Assembly: GCA_029553475.1 (NCBI GenBank)
Contig: JAKPKV010000030.1
Location: 1-64,000 of the forward strand
Length of the DNA: 64,000 nucleotides
From: Armatimonadota bacterium
Lineage (GTDB): Bacteria > Armatimonadota > Hebobacteria > CAIYQO01
Direction: 5' to 3'
This document shows positions 30,110 through 32,885 of this stretch, piece by piece. A program made the position numbers and the translations under genes. The notes below the pieces were generated by a model. That model did no database searches, was not told the DNA's origin, and saw only the letters and a program-made list of their open reading frames with translations. Each line of letters starts with the position of its first letter. Within the stretch, counting starts at the first letter, position 1.

Positions 30110-31795
30110 ATGGCTGACAGAGAAGTGCACGGATTGGATGCCATGTAGGCAGCGCACCAGCAGGCCATTCGGCGCCTGTTGATCGGCCTCACGCGGGACA
30201 TTGATCTGGCCGATGACCTGGCGCAGGAGACGTATCTGCACGCGCGCCGAGGCTTTGCCGGTTATCGCGGCGGAGAGGCGTGCGCGTGGTTCGCGGCCAT
30301 CGCCCGCCAGGTATTTTTTCACTATCTCCGGCGGCGCCGTGCGCATCGCGAATTGCCCATCGAGGAGGCTACCGACGCCACCGCGACTTTCCCCGCGGAT
30401 CATGCCATCCTGCTCGACCTGCGCCAGGCGATCGCCGCCCTCCCCGCCACGTTACGCGAGGCGCTGTTGCTGAAGCATTACGGCGGTTTCTCGTACCAGG
30501 AGATCGCCCAACGGCAACACTCCCCGGAAGGCACCGCCAAATGGCGCGTCTCCGCTGCCATCACCCGTCTGAAAGCCGCGTTACGCACCACGGAGGAACA
30601 GACCATGGCCTGCCGTACGCTGCGGGGAATCCGCCTGGTGGATTATTTGAGCGGTGTCCTGCCCGAAAAAGACGCACGCCGCATCCGCGCCCACCTGGAA
30701 CGCTGTGCCGCCTGCAAGCGGGACGCCGAGACGCTGCGCAGACTCGTCGCCACCCTTGATGCCGTCGAAGGGGACTTCTGCGCGACGCAGATCATTGAGT
30801 TGGATACGCGGGGAGTGCCCACCAAATACTGCTGGTCGAGTACGGCGAACGTTTTCCCGTTCCCCATGCCCACCGAATGGTGGATGCTGGAAAAAGAATT
30901 TGTCGCCGATTACGCGATGGTCGAGGGGCACGAGGTGGTGTTGGAGCAATTGCCGGGCAACCCGCGGCAATATCAGTATGAGGCCGTACGCCCGACCGTC
31001 GCACCACCCGGCGGACGGATGAACGCGCTTTTCGTCTTTCACCCCATCGGCCGCGACGGCTGCGCGGAACAACTGGATGAGGGCCGCTGGCGCTTCACCG
31101 TCGAGACCTCGCCCAACACTGGTCAGGACTGGGTTTTCACCCATGCCATCCGCCTGCCTCCGGGGGCACGGCTCTCGCACGCCAGCCCGCAACCCACGGA
31201 TGTGCACGAGGGGTGCGGCGTCACCGTCATCTGGCGAACCCTGCTGCGCCGCATCACCACGGCGCCGCCTCCGGGGCAGTCGCCGATCCAGTTCCGGTGT
31301 ACCATTGCCTATGCGCAAACCATCACCGCGGCTCCCGCCGAACCGGTGCCACATCCCACTGGCATGGTGATCCGCGCCCCGGACATCGTCTTTACGATCC
31401 TCGAGGATCCTCGTACCGCGACTACGGAAGAAGCGCTGGCCCGCTACCGCGCCGCACTGGCCGCCGCGATGGTCACGCCGAAAGCGTGGCTTGTGCTCGG
31501 GATCGAGCTGTACCGCCACCGCCGCTGGTCGGAAGCTCTCGACGCCGTGGCCCGCGCCGCCGCCCATCCCGAGCGCGTCTTTCCCCCCTATCATCTCTGC
31601 GCGCTCACCTGGCAAGGTCAACTGCTCGATCTGCTCAACCGCCGTGATGAGGCCGTGACATGCTATAGACAAGCCTTGGCACGCTATCCACACGATAGCG
31701 AGTATGCGTTTCGCCAGCGGCAGTACGGCATTGACATGAACCGCCGGGTGATCGAGCACCGCCTGCACAGGCCGTTCAGCGGAGAAGAGCTGTGA
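30110..31795 (+). CDS. ECF sigma factor fused to anti-sigma-type zinc finger and TPR region; in-frame amber codon at 30146
   Basis: ATG 30110 follows GAGGATAGCGGG and reads 12 codons to a TAG at 30146-30148, then stays open to 31795; a TTG at 30179 would restart translation for 538 residues. The TTG-numbered product has sigma region 2 (DIDLADDLAQETYLHARRG), region 4 (~75-140: LPATLREALLLKHYGGFSYQ, QEIAQ), a zf-HC2 motif H172-x3-C176-x2-C179 in AHLERCAACK as in anti-sigma factors, a ~230-residue beta-rich part I do not recognise, and C-terminal TPR-like helices. No membrane helix. It may be a nonsense-mutated, suppressed or restarted gene. The internal ATG 30605 has its own ribosome site and could yield an anti-sigma form. 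Confidence 0.65.
30592..30607 (+). promoter_or_regulatory. Internal ribosome-binding site and start inside the sigma fusion
   Basis: GGAGGA (30592-30597) lies 7 nt before ATG 30605, in the same frame as the sigma fusion. Starting here would give a ~396-residue protein that begins just before the anti-sigma-type zinc finger (MACRTLRGIRLVDYLSG). Confidence 0.5.
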
Positions 31796-31879: not shown

Positions 31880-31908
31880 TTGACAGCCGGACAACACCGG
31901 AGTACAAT
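31880..31908 (+). promoter_or_regulatory. Strong sigma-70-type promoter for the leader/methyltransferase unit
   Basis: TTGACA (31880-31885), a 17-bp spacer and TACAAT (31903-31908). This is a perfect -35 and a 5-of-6 -10, predicting transcription from about 31915. Confidence 0.7.
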
Positions 31909-31940
31909 ATATGTATATTCTTACTCGGGAGCAGGGCGCG

Positions 31941-32024
31941 GTGATCCATAGCACCAATGGCGGATTCTGGTATTACTTTACGTGCGACATACCGCGTGCC
32001 GCCTGGGTGACGCCGGCTCCGTGA
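31941..32024 (+). CDS. Putative 27-codon leader peptide with FWYYF cluster
   Basis: A GTG start at 31941 follows GGGAG by 9 nt on the predicted transcript. The peptide contains Phe-Trp-Tyr-Tyr-Phe at codons 9-13 (31965-31979) and another Trp before the TGA at 32022. An in-frame ATG at 31911 would give 37 residues but lies upstream of the predicted transcription start. The codons for Ala-Ala-Trp-Val overlap a sequence that can pair with the downstream terminator, as in transcription attenuators. It is short, so coding is inferred from start signals and geometry. Confidence 0.5.
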   Translation: MIHSTNGGFWYYFTCDIPRAAWVTPAP

Positions 32025-32065
32025 TGTCGGCGCAATAACGGAAAAACCCTCCACACCGCAGGCGG
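31999..32065 (+). promoter_or_regulatory. Predicted antiterminator pairing
   Basis: CCGCCTGGGTG (31999-32009, inside the leader peptide frame) is complementary to the terminator's left arm CACCGCAGGCGG (32054-32065) over 11 bp with one bulged G. Formation would block the terminator. Confidence 0.5.
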
Positions 32066-32082
32066 ACCGCCTGCGGTGTTTT
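32053..32082 (+). terminator. Intrinsic terminator upstream of the methyltransferase gene
   Basis: ACACCGCAGGC and GCCTGCGGTGT form an 11-bp GC-rich stem over a short GGACC loop, followed by TTTT. It lies 33 nt before the methyltransferase start, so it either ends a small RNA of ~165 nt or works as an attenuator. Confidence 0.75.
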
Positions 32083-32114
32083 CGTATATCCGGTGTCTGA
32101 GAAGGAGTGCTGCC

Positions 32115-32885
32115 ATGAACGCGTTGGCTGTTGCGGAACGCACGATGTCCCTCCCCCGGCTGCCGTTGGAGCCGGATCTGTTCGGCCGTGTGCTGGACGA
32201 CTGCCACCGGGGCATCTCGACGGAGTATTTTCTTCGTCGGGACGACAACCTGCTGGAGCGCGACAGCAGCCTGCGCTATTTCCGCGCCTGGCACGAGATG
32301 CCCGCGCATCATCGCTGCCTGCTCACCCATGCCCGCGGGCGCGTGCTGGACGTGGGCGCCGGCGCCGGGCAGCATACCCTCGTCCTGCAGGAGCGCGGGC
32401 TGGCGGTCACCGCCATTGACGCCTCACCGCTGGCGGTGGAGGTCTGCCGCCGGCGCGGGGTGCGCGACGCCCGCGAGATGGACGCCCACGTGCTGCGCTT
32501 CCCCGCCGGCTCGTTCGATACCGTGCTCTTCATGCAGCAGACGCTGGGGCTGGCCGGCACGCCGGAGGGGCTGCGCTACCTGCTGCGGCGCCTGCATCGC
32601 CTCGTCGCCGACGGCGGGCAGTTGCTCGCCGACATCGCCACCCCTGCCGACGCCCTCCAGCCCGGCCATCGCCGCTACCAGCATCAGAACCGCGCCCTCG
32701 GCCGCTATCCCGGCACCGTGCGCCAGCGCATCGAATACCAGGGCATGCGCGGCCTCGATTTCGACTGGCTGCTCCTCCCCCTCGACGACCTGCGCGCCCT
32801 CTGCGCCGATACCGGCTGGAAAATCACCCGCTGCGTGCAGGTGGACGCCAACGCCACCTATGCCATCGCGCTGGGCAAGGTGTGA
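32115..32885 (+). CDS. Class I SAM-dependent methyltransferase
   Basis: The 256-residue protein has the Rossmann methyltransferase core: motif I VLDVGAGAGQHTLVL, the acidic strand-2 end AVTAIDAS, DAHVLRFPAGSFDTVLFMQQ (motifs II/III region) and HRLVADGGQLLADI. The N-terminal ~75 residues (with LFGRVLDDCHRGI) may form a lid for the substrate. GAAGGAG before ATG 32115 sets the start. The substrate is unknown: a small molecule is most likely from the methyltransferase-11/25 type core. It is separated from the sigma fusion by a promoter, a leader peptide and a terminator, so it is probably regulated by attenuation. Confidence 0.8.
   Translation: MNALAVAERTMSLPRLPLEPDLFGRVLDDCHRGISTEYFLRRDDNLLERDSSLRYFRAWHEMPAHHRCLLTHARGRVLDVGAGAGQHTLVLQERGLAVTAIDASPLAVEVCRRRGVRDAREMDAHVLRFPAGSFDTVLFMQQTLGLAGTPEGLRYLLRRLHRLVADGGQLLADIATPADALQPGHRRYQHQNRALGRYPGTVRQRIEYQGMRGLDFDWLLLPLDDLRALCADTGWKITRCVQVDANATYAIALGKV

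Follow-up and report, generated by a model that had tools for sequence, protein, structure and literature searches.

A 64,000-nucleotide stretch of DNA from an uncultured Armatimonadota bacterium, hereafter the window, raises the question of how a solitary methyltransferase gene comes to lie behind a short aromatic-rich reading frame and a terminator, and of what signal such a leader might convey. The site is situated between a sigma-factor/TPR gene and the methyltransferase gene, on the same (+) strand. It begins with a near-consensus sigma-70-type promoter at 31880-31908, composed of a −35 element TTGACA (31880-31885), a 17-nt spacer, and a −10 element TACAAT (31903-31908); in a promoter scan this was the sole promoter-like site between 31700 and 32200, where shuffled sequences give an expectation of 0.1. 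A Shine-Dalgarno-like GGGAG (31927-31931) precedes a 27-codon open reading frame (31941-32024; GTG at 31941-31943, TGA at 32022-32024) that reads MIHSTNGGFWYYFTCDIPRAAWVTPAP, and the codons TTC TGG TAT TAC TTT at 31965-31979 specify F-W-Y-Y-F and are the presumed stall codons. The TTGACA-17-TACAAT promoter, the GGGAG, the GTG start at 31941, the stop at 32022, and the FWYYF codons had been described in a first-pass annotation of this DNA, and each was recovered at its place or within one base of it. Further along, at 31988-31997, the leader carries the conserved CATACCGCGT, which includes a rare Ile codon, ATA (1% of the Ile codons used locally), that is retained in the orthologous leader discussed below. 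We consider it probable that the methyltransferase leader works by ribosome-mediated transcription attenuation in its classic form.

Between the leader and the gene lies an intrinsic terminator hairpin of 12 bp with a 3-nt loop (32053-32079, + strand), for which 0.2 occurrences are expected in shuffles. It had earlier been drawn as a terminator with a T-run at 32053-32082; the hairpin holds, whereas the U-tract is short (TTTTCG in the window, six U in the orthologue). The left arm of the hairpin (32054-32065) doubles as the right strand of an antiterminator, the left strand of which, CCGCCTGGGTG, occupies 31999-32009. As the first-pass annotation had proposed, these strands can form 11 bp with one bulge, a G. 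The duplex is predicted at −20.9 kcal/mol, a value matched by 8 of 1000 dinucleotide shuffles, and its orthologous counterpart at −18.0 kcal/mol, reached by 36 of 1000. Pairing strength was nonetheless dropped as proof after a synonymous-recoding control, since recodings of the same peptide that reach it are not rare (158 of 500 for the window and 44 of 500 for the orthologue). Thus, pairing strength alone is weak evidence, because it is common among synonymous recodings; conservation is strong evidence.

Folding and comparison also revealed elements that the first-pass annotation did not contain, namely, a hairpin at the stop codon, a pairing between the 5′ UTR and the antiterminator strand, and the conservation of the leader. 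The hairpin (CGCCGGC/GTCGGCG, 32011-32032) holds the stop codon in its loop, is nested in the antiterminator, and is conserved in the orthologue. The 5′ UTR strand UUACUCGGG (31921-31929), which overlaps the leader Shine-Dalgarno sequence and appears in the folds and in the RNAalifold consensus, can pair over 9 bp with 32002-32010 and may act as an anti-antiterminator; the orthologous pairing, CACUCAGG with CCUGGGUG, is predicted at 8 bp. The segment at 31988-31997 likewise has alternative partners: when untranslated, it can pair with the start-codon region (31936-31943), and when a ribosome is stalled upstream, it can pair instead with the right arm of the terminator.

In the sequence of events that we infer at this leader, involving its translation, ribosome stalling, and termination, RNA polymerase would start near 31915 and transcribe the 27-codon leader. 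When aromatic aminoacyl-tRNAs (Trp, Tyr, and Phe) are scarce, the first ribosome would stall on F-W-Y-Y-F, freeing 31999-32009 to pair with the emerging left arm of the terminator; the terminator would be blocked and the methyltransferase gene transcribed. A ribosome that runs on would cover 31999-32009 and open the stop-codon hairpin, the terminator would form, and transcription would end. If the leader is untranslated, the antiterminator strand may be taken up by the 5′ UTR, and the terminator would again be favoured in the completed transcript.

To model the ribosome footprint, we took the toeprint distance quoted in PMC6851288 (15-16 nt). A ribosome whose A site held any of the aromatic codons covered 0 of the 11 antiterminator-strand nucleotides, in the window as well as in the orthologue; with the A site anywhere from GCC 31998 to GCT 32016, all 11 were covered, and the orthologue gave the same map. 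The attenuation geometry originally noted is reproduced by the model, which leaves 31999-32009 free upon an aromatic stall and covers the strand further on. When the left arm alone of the terminator has emerged, aromatic-codon stalls give a predicted value of 0.99 for the antiterminator, and positions from Arg in the A site onward give 0, in both genomes. At full-length equilibrium, the antiterminator is favoured in the window only with TAT (0.73), TAC (0.94), or TTT (0.66) in the A site; pairing of CATACCGC with the terminator right arm accounts for this preference. In the orthologue, the completed terminator is the stabler of the two structures wherever the ribosome stands, so that antitermination in that genome has to be kinetic. 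Terminator and antiterminator are thus predicted to be mutually exclusive and gated by ribosome position, with an equilibrium preference in the window only. In the finished leader without translation, the terminator is favoured in both genomes, aided by pairing of the 5′ UTR (UUACUCGGG or CACUCAGG) with CCUGGGUG. While the left arm is emerging, however, the 5′ UTR pairing of the untranslated window leader yields to the antiterminator (0.99), which makes the OFF state without translation less certain, and the least certain part of the model.

Orthologues of the methyltransferase gene occur in two other genomes of the family, G001 (same genus) and G002 (another genus). The contig of G001 ends inside the gene (residue 32), and the leader comparison was made with G002 alone. 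The closest named relative is the MAG UR.bin144, the methyltransferase of which is 90% identical over residues 32-256; the G002 enzyme (locus L003) is 63% identical to that of the window. The G002 locus contains a TTGACA-17-TAGAAT promoter, a good ribosome site, the peptide MSHVATYYWYYFTTSIPRLAWVAPAG, the antiterminator strand, the stop-codon hairpin, and the terminator. Hence, a promoter and a translatable leader frame with its own ribosome site precede the gene in both genomes. The two leaders align without insertion or deletion between the Trp codon and the stop; in each, 31 nt separate the Trp codon from the antiterminator strand, and 13 nt separate that strand from the stop. Orthologous upstream regions lacking peptide or pairing had been named as a check on the first proposal; the sole testable orthologue keeps peptide, pairing, spacing, hairpins, and terminator. 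The neighbours differ on both the upstream and downstream sides, so that, as judged from sequence, promoter, leader, and methyltransferase gene are retained as a single unit.

The conserved part of the peptide reads W-Y-Y-F-T-x-x-I-P-R-x-A-W-V-x-P-A, and its aromatic run is conserved in kind rather than by letter (G-F-W-Y-Y-F in the window versus Y-Y-W-Y-Y-F in G002); a regulatory codon run is therefore present in both leaders. From the Trp codon on, the two leaders agree at 16 of 17 third codon positions, compared to 51% of those in the methyltransferase gene, the best 17-codon stretch of which reaches 14 of 17. This difference points to a constraint acting on the RNA besides the peptide. Moreover, the C-G that forms the outermost antiterminator pair of the window corresponds to U-A in the orthologue, a compensatory change. 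The comparative support thus comes from one orthologue, and its covariation component from very few pairs. These data bear directly on coincidence, that is, a chance reading frame and an ordinary terminator or hairpin ahead of a constitutive gene. The short U-tract and the commonness of such pairing strength among synonymous recodings in GC-rich DNA would fit it, yet all elements and spacings are conserved between genera with different neighbours, and a run of five aromatic codons within 26 would arise by chance with a probability of about 4e-5, given a local aromatic frequency of 7%. Coincidence is largely refuted by the orthologue, and we regard it as extremely unlikely.

We searched 291 genomes of the phylum for the leader peptide with a pattern allowing ≤3 mismatches and with a profile. 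It was found at two loci only, and the next profile matches (E values of 2e-4 and 7e-4) were unrelated sequence; none was found in the viral contigs and plasmids searched. The methyltransferase gene itself is present in 12 of the 291 genomes, with a patchy distribution, and is absent from the rest of its class. Upstream of nine distant homologues (32-41% identical), there was neither a terminator-like site nor a similarly arranged aromatic-rich leader. Among the phylum genomes searched, the leader appears to be confined to this Armatimonadota family. Separately, a riboswitch or a known leader family was considered and rejected, as no Rfam covariance model matched at the gathering score or at E values up to 5.

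The controlled gene (32115-32885, + strand, with an AAGGAG ribosome site at 32102-32107) encodes a class I SAM-dependent methyltransferase of 256 residues that matches Pfam Methyltransf_11/25, in agreement with its initial description as a SAM methyltransferase rather than an amino-acid biosynthesis gene. It falls below the cut-off of every NCBIfam model and far below those for Erm, Erm55, and RlmM, and it has zero matches to resistance families; the closest solved structures (5bp9, 9khp, and 9klx) are all uncharacterised. The target is accordingly neither a gene that makes, charges, or transports the sensed amino acid, as in leaders of amino-acid biosynthetic operons, nor a recognisable rRNA resistance methyltransferase of the tlrB/erm type. 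Distant similarity to daptide and cypemycin methyltransferases would suit a different role for the leader, in which the small peptide itself is the functional product, either the precursor of a modified peptide or a leader that acts in trans, and the terminator only lowers the methyltransferase relative to the peptide. Trans action is known for leader peptides (peTrpL; PMC7298713), and the peptide sequence is conserved between genera. Nonetheless, the daptide and cypemycin matches lie far below the cut-offs, the next gene is convergent, and the unit contains no other modification, protease, or transport gene. Together with synonymous sites whose conservation exceeds that of every stretch of the neighbouring gene, these findings make a functional peptide very unlikely.

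Which signal an attenuator at this position would read was addressed by comparison with tlrB (yxjB) of Bacillus subtilis, in which tylosin stalls the ribosome at RYR of a 9-aa peptide and the stalled ribosome itself blocks the terminator and frees the Shine-Dalgarno sequence of a 23S rRNA methyltransferase gene, RlmA(II) (PMC6851288). The leader studied here resembles tlrB in having a leader peptide and a terminator ahead of a methyltransferase gene, and it differs in the features specific to tlrB (the 9-aa RYR peptide, tylosin, and RlmA(II)). By analogy with tlrB/yxjB and erm, the nascent peptide together with an antibiotic or other small molecule could stall the ribosome in the same attenuator, the methyltransferase being a resistance or detoxification enzyme and the arrest motif lying within WYYFTxxIPRxAW. 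The tlrB-like arrangement (PMC6851288), peptide conservation beyond the aromatic run, and a solitary gene of patchy occurrence that is missing from the rest of its class are consistent with such a stall. However, the conserved I-P-R, A-W-V, and P-A codons all fall within predicted RNA helices, and RNA pairing explains their conservation with no need for a peptide-level explanation. In addition, a ribosome stalled at IPR or beyond would sit over the antiterminator, blocking rather than allowing it; the identity of the aromatic residues is loosely kept (F-W versus Y-Y-W), as in codon sensing; and the protein scores far below the cut-offs of the Erm and RlmM models and matches no resistance family. 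We therefore judge a drug-induced stall to be unlikely.

Other aromatic leaders in the lineage are also informative on this point. In the genome of the window (G000) and in G002, trpE is preceded by a short reading frame with the conserved CTGGTGCTGGCGA (Trp-Cys-Trp-Arg) and then by a strong GC-rich terminator (L068, G000:C131:57892-59283, − strand; L067, G002:C304:162-1553, − strand). Considered by itself, this trpE leader is a classic-looking trp attenuator in Armatimonadota. G000 also has a tRNA-Tyr gene and tyrS behind a leader peptide, MSNMSRYYYYASSLCFTCGLKVG, with four Tyr codons (L085, G000:C159, upstream of tyrS at 139698, locus positions ~1080-1373). The order there is a TTGACA promoter, the four-Tyr peptide, a terminator with nine T, the tRNA-Tyr(GTA) gene, and tyrS, which is likely a Tyr attenuator ahead of a tRNA gene and its synthetase. 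No Tyr-codon leader was seen upstream of tyrS in two related genomes, and none of this kind was seen upstream of pheS, trpS, and the DAHP synthase and prephenate dehydratase genes. The Trp leaders at trpE and the Tyr leader at tRNA-Tyr/tyrS make tRNA charging a likelier signal than a drug. Hence, of the two signals first suggested, aromatic tRNA charging is favoured and the stalling drug less so; if the leader is an attenuator, charged aromatic tRNA (Trp, Tyr, and Phe) is fairly likely to be what it senses.

The methyltransferase leader shares with the trpE and tRNA-Tyr/tyrS leaders a TTGACA promoter, a short reading frame with aromatic regulatory codons, and a GC-rich terminator; those leaders, in contrast, carry codons for a single amino acid (Trp-Cys-Trp or four Tyr) and precede matching amino-acid genes. 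Its likeness to the classic trp, phe, and his attenuators extends to a short leader frame with a regulatory codon run, an antiterminator and a terminator that share one strand, and a stop codon sited where a ribosome completing the peptide blocks the antiterminator. It differs from them in its lone methyltransferase target, its mixed Trp/Tyr/Phe codons, its occurrence in Armatimonadota, and the lack of an Rfam leader match. Some features count against an attenuator: with one Trp, two Tyr, and two Phe codons, the leader would sense any one amino acid only weakly, the U-tract is short, the target is not an amino-acid gene, the pheS, trpS, DAHP synthase, and prephenate dehydratase genes lack such leaders, and only one orthologue was testable. 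A further idea, possible and at present doubtful, is that WYYFTxxIPRxAW is a previously undescribed sensor peptide and the methyltransferase a matching detoxification or salvage enzyme. We would say the same of its variants, a small-molecule arrest peptide or a joint sensor of the three aromatic tRNAs, the last of which, if true, would signal a lost shikimate pathway or a poisoned aromatic tRNA synthetase.

Ribosome-mediated attenuators have been described for trp, trpS, and leuS in Actinobacteria (PMC1262725); our literature searches for this mechanism in Armatimonadota found no description. The methyltransferase, trpE, and tyrS leaders suggest that ribosome-mediated attenuation is in regular use in this little-studied phylum. 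The methyltransferase is an unexpected target for this well-known form of control, and the signal of its sensor, readable from the codons, offers a direct clue that the role of the enzyme may be linked with aromatic amino acids or with compounds that prevent their use.

On the upstream side of the leader, the open reading frame at 30179-31795 (+ strand) combines sigma-70 regions 2 and 4, a putative zinc finger (zf-HC2), and a TPR repeat. Domains of the zf-HC2 type are common in anti-sigma factors, and the product is apparently a sigma factor fused to an anti-sigma-like domain.
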